A stretch of 64,000 nt of DNA, taken from the NCBI RefSeq assembly GCF_902809845.1, contig NZ_CADDWI010000009.1, positions 124,001 through 188,000 of the forward strand. Reading direction: 5' to 3'. Source of the stretch: Chelativorans sp. Marseille-P2723 (GTDB lineage Bacteria; Pseudomonadota; Alphaproteobacteria; Rhizobiales; Rhizobiaceae). Of this stretch, positions 39,338 to 49,086 are shown piece by piece. A model generated the notes under the pieces. It was given only the letters and a program-made list of their open reading frames with translations, ran no database searches and had not been told where the DNA came from. Made by a program: the position numbers and the translations under genes. How positions within the stretch are numbered: position 1 is the first letter of the stretch; every line of letters starts with the position of its first letter.

Positions 39338-40114
39338 ATGGGCCTCTCCCTCTACAAAGAACAGCTTTCCTCCCGCTTGCTGCTTGGCACTGCGCAATAT
39401 CCATCTCCTGCGGTGCTGGCCGATGCCGTGCGGACCTCCGGCGCGAGGGCTATCACCGTTTCGCTCAGGCGGGAAGGCACGAGCGGCCAAAGCGGCAGCC
39501 GCTTCTGGTCGCTCATCCGCGAGCTTGATGTGCGCATCCTGCCCAATACCGCAGGCTGCCACACGGTGAAGGAGGCGGTGACAACGGCAAGAATGGCGCG
39601 CGAGGTGTTCGGCACGAATTGGATCAAGCTTGAGGTGATCGGCAATCACGACACGCTGCAGCCCGATGTCTTTGCGCTTGTTGAAGCCGCGCGCATACTG
39701 AGTGAGGATGGCTTTACGGTTTTTCCCTATACGACCGAGGATCTGGTGGTAGGTGAAAAGCTGCTTGAGGTTGGGTGCGAGGTGCTGATGCCCTGGTGCG
39801 CCCCAATTGGCTCAGCAAGGGGGCCGGTGAATATCGATGCGCTGAAGGCATATCGCACGCATTTTCCGGATACGCCGCTCATCATCGATGCCGGCCTGGG
39901 CCGGCCCTCGCATGCCGCCGCTGTCATGGAACTGGGCTTTGATGGGGTGCTGCTCAACACCGCCATCGCCAAGGCCGGCGATCCGGTGATGATGGCATCG
40001 GCCTTCGCGCAGGCAGTCGAAGCGGGCCGCCGTGCGTTCGAGGCGGGGCCGCTGGCTGGAGCCGCGCGACATGGCCGTGCCCTCCACGCCTATCATCGGC
40101 AAGGCGGTGTTCTC
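39338..40114 (+). CDS. thiG: Thiazole synthase, frameshifted near its end and joined in frame to thiE
   Basis: ThiG condenses dehydroglycine, ThiS thiocarboxylate and DXP into the thiazole ring. Residues 1-239 are normal: [16 protein letters not shown], the Schiff-base Lys in [33 protein letters not shown] and [18 protein letters not shown]. At 40052-40059 the tetranucleotide CTGG is repeated. Removing one copy restores a normal tail ([24 protein letters not shown], stop TGA overlapping the thiE ATG). With it, about 19 residues are out of frame and the frame runs on through thiE, giving one 460-residue reading frame. This could be a real mutation or a sequence error. Confidence 0.88.
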
Positions 40115-40720
40115 ATGAGGCTCGATCCGTTTTACCTCATCGTCGACTCCTCGGCCTGGATCGAGCGCCTGGTGCCGCTCGGCGTGAAGCTGGTGCAACT
40201 GCGCATCAAGGAAATGGCCGAGCCGGAGTTGCGGACGGAAATCCGCCGCGCAAGGACGATTTGCGCGCGGTATGACTGCCAGCTCATCGTCAACGACTAT
40301 TGGCAACTCGCCATCGAGGAGGATTGCGACTTCGTTCATCTCGGGCAGGAGGATCTGGCGGCCGCCGATCTCGCCGCGATCAAACGGGGGGGGCTGAGGC
40401 TGGGTATCAGCACCCATGACCATGCCGAACTTGCAACTGCGCTTGCCGTCGAACCGGACTATGTGGCGCTCGGCCCGATCTACCCTACACTCCTCAAGAA
40501 GATGAAATGGGCACCGCAAGGATTGCCGCGGGTCGCAGAGTGGAAGAAGCGTGTCGCGCCGCTGCCTCTCGTCGCCATTGGCGGCCTAACGCCCGAGCAA
40601 CTTGCCGGAGTTTTCGAGCATGGTGCAGATTCGGCCGCGGTGGTGACCGATATTCTGCGCAACTCCGACCCGGAAGGCCGCACTCGGGAATGGGTCAAGG
40701 CAACCCGTCAATGGCGATAG
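40115..40720 (+). CDS. thiE: Thiamine-phosphate synthase (in frame with thiG here)
   Basis: 201 residues from the ATG at 40115; without the thiG duplication this ATG would overlap the thiG stop as ATGA. It joins HMP-pyrophosphate and thiazole phosphate to thiamine phosphate. TIM-barrel motifs are [21 protein letters not shown] (Asn-Asp), [39 protein letters not shown] (pyrophosphate loop) and [13 protein letters not shown]. All are intact. The end overlaps thiD by ten bases. As a C-terminal fusion it may still fold, because the ThiE start follows only a short frameshifted linker. Confidence 0.92.
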
Positions 40721-41700: not shown

Positions 41701-42549
41701 ATGAACACATCATCCAGCCCGCGTGTCCGGCGCGGTTTCGTAGACGTCGACGAGGGTCAGGTGCATTTCCGCTATGCTGGACAAGGCAGGGGGCGCCCAG
41801 TGGTACTGATCCATGCGTCGCCCGGTTCCAGCCTGGGGCTTGAACCGTTGGTCGCGTCGCTGGCATCGGACCGCTACGTCGTGGCACCCGACACGATGGG
41901 CAATGGTGATTCCCACGGGAGCATGCCGGAAATTCCTGATATTGATTTCTTTGCCCAACGAGCCCTGGAGGCGATCGATGCACTTGGCATCGACAAGTTC
42001 GATCTTTACGGCACACACACCGGCGCCTCCGTCGCAGCCGAAATTGCAATACGCAACCCGGAGCGGGTGAACAGTCTCATCATGGATGGTGTAGGCCTCT
42101 ATTCGGATGAGATGCAGGCGGAATTGCTGGAGAATTATGCGCCGGCGATGAAGCCGGATCTGCACGGGAGCCACATAAACTGGGCGTGGCATTTCGTCCG
42201 CGACACATACATGTTCTGGCCGTGGTACCGTACGGACGCCGCTCATCGGCGTCAGCTAGGCCTGCCTTCCGCAGATGTCTTGCATGGCAAGGTGGTGGAC
42301 GTGCTAAAGGCGATAGAGACCTACCACCACTCGTATCGTGCGGCCTTCCGGTTCGACAAGCGCAAGCGCTTTGCCGAAATTTCCGTGCCGACGCTGGCGG
42401 TCTGCGCCGCGAGCGATATGCTCATGAAATGGCATGATGAATTCGCAGCACTCATTCCGAATTCCACGAAGGCCGTGATTCCCGCGGTCACGACGGACCC
42501 GGACGAAGCTGCCGCCATTTTCCGGAATTTCCTCGACCGCGAACTATGA
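41701..42549 (+). CDS. Alpha/beta-hydrolase-fold protein with non-canonical active site
   Basis: 282 residues from the ATG at 41701. The fold is supported by FRYAGQGRGRPVVLIHASPG (strand 3 and HxxPG), APDTMGNGDSHG (strand 4 loop), and YGTHTGASVAAEIAIRNPERVNSLIMDGVG (nucleophile elbow). The elbow reads G-T-H-T-G with His106 where GxSxG enzymes have Ser, and no GH pair is seen in the C-terminal segment (VTTDPDEAAAIFRNFL). It is therefore either a non-hydrolytic member or has an unusual mechanism. It converges on the catabolic island's left ABC operon. No start alternatives matter. Confidence 0.78.
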   Translation: MNTSSSPRVRRGFVDVDEGQVHFRYAGQGRGRPVVLIHASPGSSLGLEPLVASLASDRYVVAPDTMGNGDSHGSMPEIPDIDFFAQRALEAIDALGIDKFDLYGTHTGASVAAEIAIRNPERVNSLIMDGVGLYSDEMQAELLENYAPAMKPDLHGSHINWAWHFVRDTYMFWPWYRTDAAHRRQLGLPSADVLHGKVVDVLKAIETYHHSYRAAFRFDKRKRFAEISVPTLAVCAASDMLMKWHDEFAALIPNSTKAVIPAVTTDPDEAAAIFRNFLDREL

Positions 42550-42603: not shown

Positions 42604-43641
42604 TTAGATCTGGTCAACGAAGCGATTTGTATAGAAGCGTTCAGGCGCCACACCCTTCGTCTGGATCACGCCAGAATTTTCCAAAAGCTCGATAGCCTTC
42701 GCCCAGTCCTCTTCGCTGAAGCGCATCTGGGGAATCCCGCCCGTCGGCTCCATGTAGGGCTTCAGGCTGGCCAGGATCTGCTTGCCTTTTTCGACCTGGG
42801 ACCCTTCGATCGGATTGTAGGCATTCAGAAAGCCTACAACTTCTTCGTAGTTCGCCTCATCCTGCATGAATTCAATCCCGCGGCGGCAAGCCCGCAGGAA
42901 CCGGACGATAACCTCCTCATTTGCTGGATCGTCGGCAAATGCCAGGTTCGTGATCAGCGCGTCGGCAGGAAGCGGTGCATAGTCGTCGGCTGGTAGGTAG
43001 TGAAGTTCGATACCGTCATTCATCAGCGCAGTCTTGGACTCGTAGAAGACGAAGAAGCCATCGACTTCCCCACGCTCCAGGAATGCATAGCCGCTGGGGC
43101 CGAGCCCAGTGACAACCTTGTTGACATTGGCGGGATCCAGTCCGACGGCGCGCGACATTGCGTCAAACTGAAGATCCACGGCTCCGCCGACCGAGGCGAT
43201 ACCGATCGTCTTGCCCTGCCAATCCCTGGGATGCTTGAGAGGCTTGTCGACAGGAGACGCTAACTCCCAGAAATTCCGGTAGCCGATCTGGCCAATCGAG
43301 ATGATGGGAGCATTCTGGTCTGCGATGGGCGCACAGGTGGCGATAGGGGCTGCCATTCCGAATGGCGCTGCTCCCGCGGAAACCTGCTGAACCGAAACCG
43401 CCGTACCGGTGCCGGGCTGGATCTTGATATCCACGCCCTCTTCCTCAAAAAAGCCTTTTCCTTCAGCCGCAAGCAAATAGCCTTGGAACAGGGTGAGCTT
43501 GGCCGGCGCCATATAGGTGTAGGAACCGCCCGCCTGAGCCGCAGCGCTGGATATGCCGAAAGCTACAGAGCTTCCCCCCATCGAGGCCACTACCGTCGCA
43601 GCGAGCGACCCTTTCGTAAAACTGCGTCTGTTGATAGTCAT
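42604..43641 (-). CDS. ABC transporter substrate-binding protein, NMT1/THI5-SsuA type (left importer)
   Basis: 345 residues from the ATG at 43639-43641, preceded by GGGAGAG. A twin-arginine-like leader (NRRSFTKGSLAATVVASMGG) suggests periplasmic export. The fold shows in LAAEGKGFFEEEGVDIKIQPG, VSVQQVSAGAAPFGMAAPIATCAPIADQ, LKHPRDWQGKTIGIASVGGAVDL and FLERGEVDGFFVFYES. This family binds HMP precursors, riboflavin, aromatic sulfonates, taurine or phthalates. Proximity to the thi operon is not proof of thiamine ligands; it belongs with the catabolic genes. The ligand is unknown. Confidence 0.85.
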   Translation of the reverse strand: MTINRRSFTKGSLAATVVASMGGSSVAFGISSAAAQAGGSYTYMAPAKLTLFQGYLLAAEGKGFFEEEGVDIKIQPGTGTAVSVQQVSAGAAPFGMAAPIATCAPIADQNAPIISIGQIGYRNFWELASPVDKPLKHPRDWQGKTIGIASVGGAVDLQFDAMSRAVGLDPANVNKVVTGLGPSGYAFLERGEVDGFFVFYESKTALMNDGIELHYLPADDYAPLPADALITNLAFADDPANEEVIVRFLRACRRGIEFMQDEANYEEVVGFLNAYNPIEGSQVEKGKQILASLKPYMEPTGGIPQMRFSEEDWAKAIELLENSGVIQTKGVAPERFYTNRFVDQI

Positions 43642-43655
43642 TGCATTCTCTCCCT

Positions 43656-44501
43656 TTATGGTTGTTGAGCAGAATCGTGCCACGGCACGGCGACCTTGCG
43701 GATTGAGGCGATGAGTGCATAGAAGATGAAGCCGAAGCAGGCGAGCGCTACGATTGTCGCGAACATTTGGTCAACGCGCATGGCGTTCAGCGTCATGACG
43801 ACCATGGCCCCTAATCCCTCATTGCCGCCAAGATACTCGCCCACAATTGCACCCGTAACCGCCAGTACGCTGGCCGTTTCCACACCAGTCAGAAGATACG
43901 GAAGGACGGCGGGTATATCGAGCGACCACACGCGTTTCCAACCGGGTGCCTGAATCACCGTGAACAAGTCGCGCTGTTCTGGGCTGATTGACCGCACACC
44001 TAGGATCGTCGACTTCATCACTGGGAAGAAGGACAGCAGAACGACCATTGCGATCTTCGATTGCATGCCGAACCCCATCCATAGGAGAAAGAGCGGCATG
44101 AGCGCGACTTTGGGCGTGACCTGCGATGCTACGATAAAGGGGGAAGCAATTCGCTCGAAGAGCTTGAGCTTTCCAAGCAGCACACCCAATACCGCACCGA
44201 TGACGACTGCAATCGCGAATCCCGAAACGATCTCGGTGACCGTGATGCGGAAATAGTTCCAGAAGAACGGCTGGGACATCAGCTCCAGCAAGCTCTTGCC
44301 GACAGCTTCGGGCGGCGGCAACATGAACGGGCTGACATTGAAGACGACGATATAGAGCTTCCACAGGCCAATGAAGGCGAGAATCAGAAGCGGCGTCGTG
44401 ACCCATGTCAGATACCGGTCGGCGATCGCCAAGAGCGAATGGCGCCTTCGCTCGGCGTCGAGGACAGCCTCGGTCGACAGTTCTGAACTTGTCATCGTCA
44501 T
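43656..44501 (-). CDS. ABC transporter permease, SsuC/TauC type (left importer)
   Basis: 281 residues with six predicted membrane helices (first at about 34-54). The segment PFIVASQVTPKVALMPLFLLWMGFG precedes the EAA-type loop (FTVIQAPGWKRVWSLDIPAVLPYLLTG), which contacts the ATPase. AIVGEYLGGNEGLGAM is typical of the nitrate/sulfonate/taurine permeases. Its start overlaps the ATPase stop (ATGA), so they are translationally coupled. It has a clear homologue in the right arm at 57486-58244. Confidence 0.9.
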   Translation of the reverse strand: MTMTSSELSTEAVLDAERRRHSLLAIADRYLTWVTTPLLILAFIGLWKLYIVVFNVSPFMLPPPEAVGKSLLELMSQPFFWNYFRITVTEIVSGFAIAVVIGAVLGVLLGKLKLFERIASPFIVASQVTPKVALMPLFLLWMGFGMQSKIAMVVLLSFFPVMKSTILGVRSISPEQRDLFTVIQAPGWKRVWSLDIPAVLPYLLTGVETASVLAVTGAIVGEYLGGNEGLGAMVVMTLNAMRVDQMFATIVALACFGFIFYALIASIRKVAVPWHDSAQQP

Positions 44502-45331
44502 TCTCCTAATTCGACCCGCAATTCGGACACCAGCGCCTGGAACTCCACGGATTTTGTGATCGAAAGTGGCCTTGGCCTCTCAAAGGGCACAGGAATGATG
44601 CGCTGGACGCGACCCGGATGCGGCGAAAGCAGTACAATCCGGTCGGCTAGAAATGCGGCTTCGGTAATCGAATGCGTAACAAGCACTACAGTCTTGCGAT
44701 AGCGCAGCCAAATGTCCTGGAGCGCAAGGTTGAGTTCATCGCGCGTGATGGCATCGAGCGCGCTGAACGGCTCATCCATGAGAAGGATGGATGGCTCGGC
44801 CGCCAAAGCCCTCATAATCGCCACCCGCTGGCGCATTCCTCCGGAGAGTGCCTTGGGCAGATGATCGAGAAATTCCTTCAACCCCGCAAGCTCGGCTAGT
44901 TGCTCCGCGCGCAGCCGCCGCTTCTCCTTCGGAACCTTCTGTACTTCGAGGGGAAGCGCGATGTTCTTCCAGACCGAACGCCAGGGCAGCAGGTTCGCAT
45001 CCTGGAAAACGAAACCGAGGTCGCCGATAACGCGCGGAACAATCCGGCCATCGTCCTGATAAAGCGACTTCTCATTGATCCTAATCCGCCCTGTGGTTGG
45101 CGGCTGCAACCCTGCAAGCGTGCGCAGCAAGGTGCTCTTGCCGCACCCTGAGCGGCCAATCAGGACCACGAACTCGCCCGGCTCTATGGCCAGGTTGATA
45201 TTCTCTACGCCGACCGTGCGCTGCCCCCTGCTTTGATAGACCTTTGTAACATTCTCGATCTGGATCGAACCGCTGAGCGCCGGAGAAGGACGGGTGGGAT
45301 CCGGTACATCCGCCATGGGAGCCACGGTCAT
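44498..45331 (-). CDS. ABC transporter ATP-binding protein, SsuB/TauB type (left importer)
   Basis: 277 residues; the ATG at 45331 has GAGGTG upstream, ATG 45316 is possible. Walker A is LIGRSGCGKSTLLRTLAG, the signature is LSGGMRQRVAIMRAL, Walker B is ILLMDEPFSALD, and the H-loop is VTHSITEA. The Q-loop has VFQDANLLPW. A C-terminal tail of about 50 residues carries the usual RPRPLSITKSVEF. It energises the importer with the permease and binding protein that follow on the same strand. Confidence 0.92.
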   Translation of the reverse strand: MTVAPMADVPDPTRPSPALSGSIQIENVTKVYQSRGQRTVGVENINLAIEPGEFVVLIGRSGCGKSTLLRTLAGLQPPTTGRIRINEKSLYQDDGRIVPRVIGDLGFVFQDANLLPWRSVWKNIALPLEVQKVPKEKRRLRAEQLAELAGLKEFLDHLPKALSGGMRQRVAIMRALAAEPSILLMDEPFSALDAITRDELNLALQDIWLRYRKTVVLVTHSITEAAFLADRIVLLSPHPGRVQRIIPVPFERPRPLSITKSVEFQALVSELRVELGE

Positions 45332-45552: not shown

Positions 45553-47034
45553 CTATCCTATTGCCTCACGGATCTCGGATGCATGCATCTCGACAAGCTT
45601 TTTCTTCAGGACTTTTCCAAAACTGTTCCTTGGGAACTCGTCAACAACCAGGACTGCCTTCGGCCGTTTATAGGATGCAAGCTGGCTTGCGCACCACTCG
45701 GTCAAGCTTTCAGGGGACGGGGCGTCCCGCGCGATCACGAAGGCAACCACTTCCTCGCCGAACTCGCGCGATTCCCAGCCTGCGACCGCAGCATCGATGA
45801 TTGACGGATGGGTCAGGAGAGTTGCTTCGACATCGCTGGGATAGATGTTGACGCCGCCTCTGATGATCATGTCCTTGCGGCGACCCCGCAGCGTGATGAA
45901 ACCGTCTTCGTCACGCTCAGCAAGGTCCCCCGGATAGAACCATCCATCCCGGAACGATTCTCGGGACGCCTCATCGTCACGATAGAAGGAGTCCGCCACC
46001 CCGGGCCCGCGATAGCGCAGAAGACCGACCTCGCCTGGGGGCAAGGAGCGCCCGTCGTCATCGGCGACATCCACCTCGACTCCGAAGATGGGCCTTCCTA
46101 CCGTTCCCCCATGGGTCTCCTGGTCTTTCGGCGTCAGCAAGGAGATACCGCCGCCTTCGGTGGCCGCGTAATACTCGAAGAAGTTTGGGCATATCCGCTT
46201 GCGGATCTCAATACGCTCCTCCGGCGTAACGGGAGCGCCGCTGACCAGCAGCATCCGCAGCCTACGCAATGGCGCAAGCACAGAATCGTCGAGGTCCAAA
46301 AGCCGGCGGATCATCGTGGGAACGAGAAAAAGGCTCGTTGCCTGAGTACGCTCGACTTCGGCCGCCAGTTCCGCGACCTTGAACGGCGGCGGAAACATCA
46401 CCACCGTACCGCCGCAAAACAGCGTCGACAGGCAGAACATGCGGCCGCCACCGAAGTAAAGCGGGGTGGCACAAAGATATCGCTCATGCGTCGTGAAGCC
46501 GAGATCGATCCAATGTGTCATGTACCGCCGCAAAAAATGCCTGTGGGTGACGAGCGGCCCCTTCGGCCGGCCTGTTGTTCCCGACGAGAGTGACAGGACA
46601 AGGGGGGCGGAGCCATCGCCGCTCGGAAACTCGACCACCGGCGTCGCAGACATGTTTGCGAACCACTCGTCATCCACGGTCTGCGTGGCGATTTCCTCAC
46701 CAAGAGCGTCACCTGGCTCCAGGAGCACGAGGCTGGCACCGAAATGGCGTGCCACGCGCTCCTTCTCGACAGCCGTCCATCGGCAATCAATTGGCAGGAT
46801 GATGATATTTGCGCGAGCAAGTGCATAAAGCACGGTGAGATAGCGGGCGGTGTCGCGTAGCGCTATGCCCACAACAGCTCCCTCAGGCAATCCGGATTTA
46901 CGGAAGCCGGAGGCAATGCCAAGCATGTTGCGCACAAATTCGCTGTAGGTGGTGACCTTTTCACCCTCGATGACCGCAGGATGGTTCGGCTTGTTTCGGG
47001 CGACGCTCTCGACACCTTCGGCAATGTTGAGCAT
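45553..47034 (-). CDS. AMP-forming acyl-CoA synthetase/ligase
   Basis: 493 residues from the ATG at 47032-47034. ANL-superfamily motifs are LSLSSGTTGRPKG (P-loop), FEYYAATEGGG (adenine site), YPGDLAERDEDGFITLRGRRKDMIIRGGVNIYPSDVE (hinge and A8), and FPRNSFGKVLKKKL (catalytic Lys). It activates a carboxylate to its CoA thioester via an acyl-adenylate. The acid is unknown. It overlaps the amidohydrolase-like gene by one base and belongs to the left arm of the island. Confidence 0.9.
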   Translation of the reverse strand: MLNIAEGVESVARNKPNHPAVIEGEKVTTYSEFVRNMLGIASGFRKSGLPEGAVVGIALRDTARYLTVLYALARANIIILPIDCRWTAVEKERVARHFGASLVLLEPGDALGEEIATQTVDDEWFANMSATPVVEFPSGDGSAPLVLSLSSGTTGRPKGPLVTHRHFLRRYMTHWIDLGFTTHERYLCATPLYFGGGRMFCLSTLFCGGTVVMFPPPFKVAELAAEVERTQATSLFLVPTMIRRLLDLDDSVLAPLRRLRMLLVSGAPVTPEERIEIRKRICPNFFEYYAATEGGGISLLTPKDQETHGGTVGRPIFGVEVDVADDDGRSLPPGEVGLLRYRGPGVADSFYRDDEASRESFRDGWFYPGDLAERDEDGFITLRGRRKDMIIRGGVNIYPSDVEATLLTHPSIIDAAVAGWESREFGEEVVAFVIARDAPSPESLTEWCASQLASYKRPKAVLVVDEFPRNSFGKVLKKKLVEMHASEIREAIG

Positions 47035-47906
47035 CAAGCGCCTCCATCCAGGCCATAGATTTTCAAGACATTGTCACGCAGCAGCTTCCGTTTCGCTACA
47101 GGCTTGAGCCCCAGCTCATCTATTTCCCGAATCGTCCTTCCAAAATCGAGAATCGGGAAGTCCGTACCAAAAATGACTTTGTCTTGGCCGTAACTATTGA
47201 TGTAGTTGACGAAAGACGCCGGCCAATATTTGGGGCTATGTGCGTCGGTGCTGATGTAGACGTTGCGATGCTTCCAGGCCATCGCGATCATCTCATCCGT
47301 CCACGGTATACCAACATGAATTCCTATCAGCTTGAGCTCGGGAAAATCGCAAGCGACAGCGTCAAGCGTGATCGGCCGGCCGACGCTCCGGCGAGGATAG
47401 GATTCGTCATAGATCATTGACTGACCTACCTGGAGCTGAACCGGGACATTCAGTTCGCAGCATTTTGCATAGAACGGATACCAGCGGGCATGATCGGGCG
47501 CGAGCTCATACCAATGCGGATAGAAGTGCCCGCCGATGAAGCCATATTCGCGGACCGCTCTTTCGAACTCGCGAACACCCGCCATGCCTTCAGTAGGATC
47601 AAGGCCGGCGATTCCCAGGAAGCGGTCAGGATGTGCCTGTACAGCATCGGCTACCAGCTTGTAGGGCACGTGATAGCATGCTGGGTGGCCGAGCTGCCCC
47701 ACCTTAGCGGCTACCAGAAATGCCTTTTCAATCCCAGCCGCATCCATGCGCGCCAGCATGTCGGGAAGTGAAAGCCCTTCCATATCGACATTCACACGCA
47801 TTTTGCCGGTGTAGAAATTCTTCCGGTCCGGACGGCCAGCCAAAGCCTCCTTCGTCCAGATATTCACTGTCGAATCGATCGCCTTTATTGGTCGCTCGTC
47901 TGTCAT
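47034..47906 (-). CDS. Amidohydrolase-2 family protein lacking the N-terminal HxH metal motif
   Basis: 290 residues from the ATG at 47904-47906, preceded by AGGAGGG; an in-frame ATG at 47945 is poorer. The PF04909 fold is supported by FIGGHFYPHWYELAPDHARWYPFYAKC, LIGIHVGIPWTDEMIAMAWKHRNVYISTDAHSPKYWP and KVIFGTDFPILDF (Asp). The usual N-terminal IDxHxH metal ligands are replaced: IDSTVNIW has Thr13 and Asn15. It may be a metal-independent or one-metal hydrolase or decarboxylase. It lies between the CoA ligase and acyl-CoA dehydrogenase genes in the left arm. Confidence 0.82.
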   Translation of the reverse strand: MTDERPIKAIDSTVNIWTKEALAGRPDRKNFYTGKMRVNVDMEGLSLPDMLARMDAAGIEKAFLVAAKVGQLGHPACYHVPYKLVADAVQAHPDRFLGIAGLDPTEGMAGVREFERAVREYGFIGGHFYPHWYELAPDHARWYPFYAKCCELNVPVQLQVGQSMIYDESYPRRSVGRPITLDAVACDFPELKLIGIHVGIPWTDEMIAMAWKHRNVYISTDAHSPKYWPASFVNYINSYGQDKVIFGTDFPILDFGRTIREIDELGLKPVAKRKLLRDNVLKIYGLDGGA

Positions 47907-47946
47907 CTCGAGTCGATCCCTCCTATCAGTTGGTTTGGCTGGCACA

Positions 47947-49086
47947 TCAAAGGCCTAGCTGCCGCGCGATCAGCTCGCGCTGGATTTCGTTGGAGCCTTC
48001 ACCGAAGGTGTAGAGACGGGAATCACGCCAGTAGCGCTGCATATCGCTTTCCATTGCGTAGCCGGCGCTGGCCAGAATCTGCATCCCGTGATGCGTGACA
48101 TATTGCAATGCTTCAGTCGCGATGACCTTCGCCTGCGATGCTTGCCGTCCGCATTCCTGGTTCTGCGAGATCATCCAGGCCAGATGGTGTACGATGAGTC
48201 TTGCCTGGTCCACCCGCATCTGCATATCGGCAAGGCGGAAGCGGATAGCCTGGAACTTGCCGATGCTTCTGCCGAACTGCGTACGCTCCCGTGCATAGGA
48301 AAGGGCCAGGTCGACTGCCGCCTGGGCGCAGCCTGTCACTGTCGCCGCCATGCTGGCGCGCGAGTAGTGCAATGTAGACATGAGGTTGGCGAACCCATCA
48401 CCTTCCTCGCCGATCAGCGCGTCCTTCGGCACGAAGACATCGTCAAAACCGATGTCGAAGCTTGGCATGCAGTTGTTGCCCACTTTTGGCAAGCCCGTCA
48501 TCGATATGCCAGCCGCCTTGGGCGGGACCAGGAAAAGCGAGATTCCCTTCGCGCCTTCCGTTCCTGGTTGGCGCGCCGCTACAAGCAGCAAGTCGGCTCC
48601 TTCGGCATCGCTGATCCAGACCTTGCGTCCGCGAAGCCGCCATCCCCCATCCACCGGAATGGCGCGCGTTGACAACGCCGACGCATCCGAACCCGCGCTC
48701 GGTTCTGTCAAGGCCAGAGCAATCAGCAGCCGCCCCGCCGCAATTTCCGGAAGCAGCTCTTCGCGCTGGGCAGGCGAGCCATAGGTGAGAATTGACATCG
48801 CACCGAAACCAACGACGCGATTGAAGATCGACGCGGCGCAATAAGCATGGAGGCCCAGCCGCTCCTGGACGAGCGCTACCATGCTCCAGCTCGCATCCAA
48901 CCCGCCATACTCGGAAGGCAGTGGCAAGGCAAAAAGCCCGAGCTCAGCCATGGCTGGAAGAAGATCATATGGAGGGATGTGGCCGTCGTCGCGTCTTCGC
49001 ACCTCCTCAGGAGGCAAGTGATGCGCGATGAAACGGTCAACGCTCTCGAGCAGCAGGCGATCTTGTTCGGAAATCGAAAAGTCCAT
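47947..49086 (-). CDS. Acyl-CoA dehydrogenase
   Basis: 379 residues, the length of short- and medium-chain enzymes. It introduces an alpha-beta double bond into an acyl-CoA with FAD, passing electrons to ETF. Motifs are LALTEPSAGSDASALSTRAIPVDGGWRLRGRKVWISDAE (FAD and substrate), RERTQFGRSIGKFQAIRFRLADM, and FGEGSNEIQRELIARQLGL, where the Glu of GEG lies at the catalytic-base position. It is the first gene of the leftward transcript and is divergent from gntR. The acyl group is unknown. Confidence 0.92.
   Translation of the reverse strand: MDFSISEQDRLLLESVDRFIAHHLPPEEVRRRDDGHIPPYDLLPAMAELGLFALPLPSEYGGLDASWSMVALVQERLGLHAYCAASIFNRVVGFGAMSILTYGSPAQREELLPEIAAGRLLIALALTEPSAGSDASALSTRAIPVDGGWRLRGRKVWISDAEGADLLLVAARQPGTEGAKGISLFLVPPKAAGISMTGLPKVGNNCMPSFDIGFDDVFVPKDALIGEEGDGFANLMSTLHYSRASMAATVTGCAQAAVDLALSYARERTQFGRSIGKFQAIRFRLADMQMRVDQARLIVHHLAWMISQNQECGRQASQAKVIATEALQYVTHHGMQILASAGYAMESDMQRYWRDSRLYTFGEGSNEIQRELIARQLGL

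Follow-up and report, generated by a model that had tools for sequence, protein, structure and literature searches.

A conserved alpha/beta-hydrolase-fold family with histidine at the position of the catalytic serine

Results

Histidine at the nucleophile elbow

The gene analysed here encodes a real, conserved variant of the alpha/beta-hydrolase fold and belongs to a large, diversified family with His at the position of the catalytic Ser. It lies in a window of 64,000 nucleotides from Chelativorans sp. Marseille-P2723, the term denoting the whole stretch of DNA that was analysed. A widespread elbow-His family in which the partner His is gone and the Asp is kept would be a case of a rebuilt triad. 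We give an even chance to the reading that the protein is a catabolic enzyme in which His106 and Asp239 form an acid-base dyad. The features of the gene are:

41701-42549, + strand: His-elbow alpha/beta-hydrolase-fold gene, 282 aa (open reading frame; Pfam Abhydrolase_1; AF2 model)
41812-41832, + strand: oxyanion loop H38-A-S-P-G-S-S44 (conservation in His-elbow domains)
42010-42024, + strand: nucleophile elbow G104-T-H-T-G108, between strand 100-105 and helix 107-118 (AF2 model)
42172-42225, + strand: cap motif H158 to W175, H..W...RD....WPW (residue counts in first and second domains)
42415-42417, + strand: Asp239, at the place of the classical catalytic acid after strand 7 (alignment with the classical Asp)
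42481-42498, + strand: loop after the last strand, residues 261-266, catalytic His missing (AF2 model; His counts at 259-268)

The reading frame starts with the ATG at 41701 and is open over all 282 aa. Its product matched Pfam Abhydrolase_1 with an E value of 3.6e-15, and an NCBIfam scan of the 282-aa protein reached no family cut-off. Positions 42001-42024 are the codons for residues 101-108 (DLYGTHTG), the codon of His106 being 42016-42018. In the AF2 model (AlphaFold2, 76 sequences; pLDDT 95.8, pTM 0.93), His106 is predicted to sit in the turn from strand 5 (100-105) into helix C (107-118). When the model was compared by VIA with the chloroperoxidase-type hydrolase 4dgq, 255 residues were aligned (Z 27.9, rmsd 2.7); as modelled, the fold is an ordinary alpha/beta-hydrolase fold with an elbow turn. 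A Ser, Cys or Asp nucleophile was not found at the elbow, where His106 stands instead. This bars the classical mechanism, not membership of the fold, and the superfamily also holds Ser-less members. The loop of strand 8, residues 261-266 (PAVTTD) after the last strand (255-260), contains no His in the model. The preliminary description had recognised an alpha/beta-hydrolase-fold protein with a GTHTG elbow, His106 at the Ser position and a C-terminal segment without the catalytic GH, and had proposed structure prediction as a check. All of these assignments are borne out by the Pfam match and the model.

Conservation of the elbow among relatives

Two sets of genomes were searched without requiring the motif. 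Of 101 genomes (own genome included; threshold 1e-20), 7 gave a match, and G-x-H-T-G was present in 7/7 homologous genes outside the window at identities of 32-48% (alignment A1). The second set comprised 385 genomes of the same class, 116 of which had a match at 1e-15; many weak matches cover the N-terminal half only, and the 20 weak matches that were retrieved are classical hydrolases. In 29 other genomes, the best locus carried the elbow His in 26 cases, 25 of them as GxHTG and one (L117) as AHHTG, and lacked it in three (L112, L115 and L119). Among 20 further places picked from the 385-genome list, His was present in 11, one (L130) was ambiguous, and eight had A, F, D, S, R or M. Because the strong relatives L139 (E 7.6e-69) and L138 (E 5.9e-57) have Met and Arg, respectively, and others have Ala or Phe, the elbow His is not indispensable everywhere. 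Canonical GxSxG at the elbow of near homologues, named beforehand as the observation that would point to a local change, was not seen, and the proposed alignment of homologues upheld the motif.

The His is no local mutation, since it is carried by divergent homologues that were found without requiring the motif, and on these alignments its conservation is more than chance. A local mutation or decaying pseudogene would suit the sporadic occurrence of the gene, which was absent from 15/15 congeners at 1e-20, but the frame of 282 aa is open and the motif is common to divergent homologues; the probability of such decay is negligible.

In a scan of genome contigs, relatives were encoded in 189 stretches; 80 of these were retained. 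By record title, these loci are mostly from Proteobacteria, with a few Actinobacteria and one Marinimicrobia assembly. Alignment A2 consists of 75 of the 80 loci (L030, L033, L037, L065 and L076 left out) plus the window protein. Because the scan pattern demanded HTG, neither A2 nor loci L010-L089 were counted as conservation of the His. Public records mostly call the relatives 'alpha/beta hydrolase' or leave them unnamed, and their catabolic clusters may therefore well be mis-annotated.

A tree of 113 rows was calculated by a quick method (LG+G4, elbow columns included, L133_72 and L135_50 dropped), and it contains some long branches. The 23 classical rows made up one side of a branch with an SH-aLRT support of 99. 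The His label changed 9 times on this tree vs 35 times in shuffles. A single gain of His followed by several losses would be compatible with this pattern, which is not proof of it.

Conserved residue sets

In total, 69 His-elbow domains were aligned, 17 of which come from the pattern-selected set plus the window; domains below 45 bits or 180 aa were dropped before residues were counted. Position 239, which aligns with the classical Asp after strand 7, is Asp in 64 and Glu in 3 of them (D/E in 67/69), and D/E in 10/21 family domains without elbow His. As classical comparators, 25 domains were picked from the weaker end of the 385-genome search; they have Ser (17), Asp (6), Ala (1) or Gly (1) at the elbow, those from L133-L136 having been assigned to the classical group after their elbows had been seen. 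With one rule for both groups, a His at positions 259-268 was found in 6/69 His-elbow domains vs 24/25 classical comparators. Two relatives, L123 (G199:C58; GH) and L126 (G471:C171; TH), have both the elbow His and a His in the strand-8 loop, apparently at the classical position, and are possible intermediate or mixed forms.

The oxyanion loop, described beforehand as a partly kept HASPG, is present as H38-A-S-P-G-S-S, and its residues are retained in most of 68 His-elbow domains (H38 in 63, P41 in 57, S43 in 61). Thr107 is kept in 67/68. These counts bear on the idea that the nucleophile is Ser43 of this loop, or Thr107, with His106 as its base. Both residues are conserved, but Ser at 43 is also common in classical hydrolases (11/25), and Thr107 comes after the elbow, on helix C. 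We know of no case in which position 43 or 107 is a nucleophile position, and we consider this arrangement quite improbable. A structure with another competent Ser, which the preliminary description had named as evidence to the contrary, is likewise not known, although both of these residues are conserved.

Fused second domains

At 14 of the 29 loci (L097, L098, L100-L111), a His-elbow first domain is followed in the same frame by a fused, degenerate second hydrolase domain. At L005, L007 and L009, the His-elbow domain instead comes second, after an N-terminal copy that is very weak (14-16 bits); the double-domain frames of both kinds are ~490-725 aa long. In 13 second domains, a set that excludes the weak second copies at L103 and L104 as well as the weak N-terminal copies at L005, L007 and L009, the elbow set was largely lost (His106 in 1, Glu114 in 4, Tyr208 in 4, Tyr212 in 0, Asp239 in 6). 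Of the cap set, H158, W163 and R167 were each present in 13/13 and D168 in 11; because second domains were found by profile, copies without the cap motif would be missed. In 68 His-elbow domains these cap residues are kept less strictly, with counts of 58 for W163, 51 for R167, 50 for D168 and 34 for H158. Most second domains cluster together on the tree (support 88, long branches).

We infer that the second domains may separate an elbow set, as would be expected of an active site, from a cap set that is retained on other grounds, probably for binding the substrate or for pairing the domains. His106 and Asp239 are kept together and often lost in the second domain; thus, an active site is favoured over a dead scaffold.

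Genomic setting

The His-elbow gene follows thiamine genes and is convergent with a catabolic cluster, so that it is not part of the operon of the cluster. The neighbouring genes of the cluster are listed here, with relatives counted in the DNA stretch of each of 80 related loci:

42604-43683, - strand: NMT1/SsuA-like substrate-binding protein, the convergent neighbour (NMT1 E 6.8e-33)
43656-44501, - strand: ABC permease (BPD_transp_1 E 2.6e-24)
44498-45331, - strand: ABC ATPase (ABC_tran E 2.2e-35)
45553-47037, - strand: AMP-forming acyl-CoA ligase (AMP-binding E 7.4e-65; relative at 32/80 loci)
47034-47945, - strand: Amidohydro_2-fold partner without HxH metal motif (PF04909 E 1e-42; relative at 26/80 loci)
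47947-49086, - strand: acyl-CoA dehydrogenase (domain match; relative at 25/80 loci)

The gene had been placed at the edge of an island, which is supported only in part. It stands between the thiamine genes and the convergent cluster, and the GC content (55-63% per kb) has no clear step. On the thiamine side, ThiG is fused to a TMP-TENI (ThiE-type) domain in one frame (39338-40720, + strand), with a DAO-family (ThiO-like) gene on one side and a Phos_pyr_kin (ThiD) gene on the other.

The amidohydrolase relatives at the 26 loci are often 68-75% identical to that of the window. On annotated plasmids, the four gene types, those of the His-elbow protein, the ligase, the amidohydrolase and the dehydrogenase, lie within ~5.5 kb in Variovorax SRS16 and within ~4.4 kb in Comamonas endophytica. 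Among the 385 genomes, the His-elbow family was found in 29 (E <=1e-27), the amidohydrolase in 21 (1e-60) and both in 16, leaving 5 of the 21 amidohydrolase genomes without the His-elbow family at the cut-off. The co-occurrence of 16/21 compares with 1.58 expected (hypergeometric 1.4e-16, a value that ignores relatedness; 10/11 families overlap). The amidohydrolase neighbour was absent in 15/15 congeners at 1e-60.

Other neighbours at some loci are hydantoinase-like (Amidohydro_1), isochorismatase-like, amidase, LeuCD-like and isocitrate-lyase-like genes. Cyclic imides or branched dicarboxylates as substrates would fit some of these neighbours; this assignment was not adopted because the neighbours vary too much between loci.

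Several loci had arrangements of their own. On the Sphingobium plasmid pTomTYG65b (L142), the neighbours are LeuCD-like, isocitrate-lyase-like, isochorismatase-like, HMG-CoA-lyase and CoA-transferase genes, and the opposite strand carries a double-domain relative with ATHTS. A tandem pair of polysaccharide-deacetylase-family genes together with an isochorismatase gene recurs near the family in Comamonas (L141) and Sphingobium (L142). On the Antarctobacter plasmid pSMS3-3 (L143), the family gene shares a few bases with the end of a SAM methyltransferase gene, and three hypothetical genes precede this pair.

The amidohydrolase partner

The partner reads D24-S-T-V-N28 at the metal motif, and three other Amidohydro_2 proteins of the same genome read DAHIH, DPHHH and DSHLH. 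No His at 26 or 28 was present in 46 aligned partner sequences, the motif being read by eye in a set from which near-copies were not removed and ORFs of at least 420 aa were dropped; H140, Y142, P143, H144, W145 and Q172 are invariant in these sequences. A3 contains the window and 22 of the 30 stretches listed. The model of the partner (pLDDT 91) was nearest to 3irs, an uncharacterised TIM-barrel structure from Bordetella, and to decarboxylases. Two hydrolase-superfamily proteins, each with an altered catalytic motif, thus often occur together.

Elsewhere in the own genome (G000:C9:229038-231570; L196, L200), a second alpha/beta-hydrolase-fold gene lies near another Amidohydro_2 gene, with ~1.3 kb between the match ends. 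That Amidohydro_2 gene keeps DSHLH, and the elbow of its neighbour, GWGTG in a weak profile alignment, is seemingly Ser-less.

The altered partner enters the main rival explanation, according to which the His-elbow protein is a non-catalytic, ligand-binding or chaperone-like partner that works with or regulates the amidohydrolase relative, with His106 only shaping the pocket. Not only are the Ser and the strand-8 His both lost, but the metal motif of the amidohydrolase is lost too; the family does include non-catalytic copies, as seen from fused second domains that lack the elbow set, and the elbow residue is Met or Arg in two strong relatives. Against this, His106-Thr107-Gly108 and Asp239 are kept in most first domains but frequently lost in second copies, which exceeds the needs of a passive scaffold, and no amidohydrolase partner was found in the DNA stretch of 54/80 loci, some contigs being short. 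We regard the non-catalytic role as rather doubtful.

Proposed role of His106 and Asp239

According to the acid-base reading, the classical triad would have been rebuilt: the elbow Ser is replaced by His (mostly GxHTG) and the mobile His after strand 8 is gone, the Asp after strand 7 staying in place. His106, oriented by Asp239, might provide general acid/base catalysis by activating water or transferring a proton, and the oxyanion loop (H38-SPG) together with the backbone of Thr107 might polarise a carbonyl. The protein would take a step in the breakdown of an organic acid, the same acid being handled by the CoA ligase, the acyl-CoA dehydrogenase and the amidohydrolase relative that lacks the metal motif. 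As candidate reactions, the acid or its CoA ester might be hydrolysed, hydrated or cleaved at a C-C bond. In favour of this reading are the conservation of the elbow His and of D/E at 239, the frequent loss of both in second domains, the separation of the classical rows on the tree and the linkage of the closer relatives to the catabolic genes. Against it count the three of 29 loci without the His, the strong relatives with Met or Arg, the strand-8 His of L123 and L126, the place of the window gene outside the catabolic operon, the 54/80 loci with no amidohydrolase in their DNA stretch and the five amidohydrolase genomes without the family. A wider reading, which would amount to a new form of catalysis on the most intensively studied hydrolase fold and in which the elbow His and Asp239 replace Ser and the mobile His, as base or as acyl-imidazole nucleophile, and the protein cooperates with the metal-motif-less amidohydrolase relative in a catabolic pathway, is tentative, and we hold it somewhat more likely to be wrong than right.

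His106 might also be a covalent nucleophile, forming an acyl-imidazole intermediate in an acyltransferase or a hydrolase with a new nucleophile. It sits exactly at the Ser/Cys/Asp site of the fold, beside the kept oxyanion loop, and Asp239 is kept as well. On the other hand, no other general base was identified, and the variants listed in section 2.7 of a review (PMC11878206) are only Ser, Asp, Cys or Ser-less arrangements, elbow His not being among those given there. A covalent role of His106 seems improbable.

Comparison with known systems

The Ser-His-Asp triad is the textbook case for the alpha/beta-hydrolase fold. An open-access literature search, covering titles and the starts of abstracts, returned no hydrolase-fold family with an elbow His. 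The passages of PMC9105624, which deal with an Arg in an SGNH esterase, offered no precedent. When the A2 profile was compared with the PDB, the best match was an ordinary esterase (E 1.3e-18; best 60 of 321 matches), and two GHHTG relatives matched only ordinary families. Ordinary hydrolases were also among the matches listed by Foldseek and VIA (top 50).

The His-elbow protein has the fold and the acid position in common with PcaD, arylesterases and the C-C hydrolases DxnB2, CarC and BphD. VIA gave Z values of 26.4-27.2 for PcaD-type 2xua, arylesterase 3t4u, CarC and DxnB2, and BphD was among the Foldseek matches listed. The best NCBIfam match was PcaDC (E 2.8e-18, below cut-off), and the score for PcaD, the 3-oxoadipate enol-lactonase, was 58.8 bits vs a cut-off of 255.85. 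Unlike all of these enzymes, the protein has His rather than Ser at the elbow, no strand-8 His and a cap motif of its own, and its family lies on a separate side of the tree from the classical alpha/beta-hydrolases.

The cofactor-free dioxygenases HOD and QDO likewise have the fold in common with the protein and perform unusual chemistry on a hydrolase scaffold. Cofactor-free dioxygenases and hydroxynitrile lyases keep the strand-8 His as base, and HOD and QDO need it. An enzyme of these known types would fit the fold and the catabolic setting, where some loci have enzymes for nitrogen compounds (amidase, isochorismatase-like, Amidohydro_1/hydantoinase-like), but it is very unlikely because the window protein lacks the strand-8 His. 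The preliminary description had offered three options: a binding protein that is catalytically dead, a cofactor-free oxygenase or lyase-like enzyme, and an unusual hydrolase. The second is thus unlikely as far as dioxygenases of known type are concerned, and the first is less favoured than an active site.

With haloalkane and fluoroacetate dehalogenases and epoxide hydrolases, the protein shares the fold and a non-Ser elbow residue. These enzymes use an Asp nucleophile with a strand-8 His, both of which are absent in the window protein. RutD and other Ser-less hydrolase-fold proteins resemble it in lacking a Ser nucleophile, and the RutD profile matched it with an E value of 3.6e-13, below cut-off. 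The RutD type combines a small elbow residue with a kept strand-8 His, neither of which was found in the window protein. In the comparator L162, which is called RutD-like from resemblance alone, the elbow residue is Ala and the strand-8 His is retained. The His-elbow protein is the reverse of it: the elbow His is present and the strand-8 His is gone.
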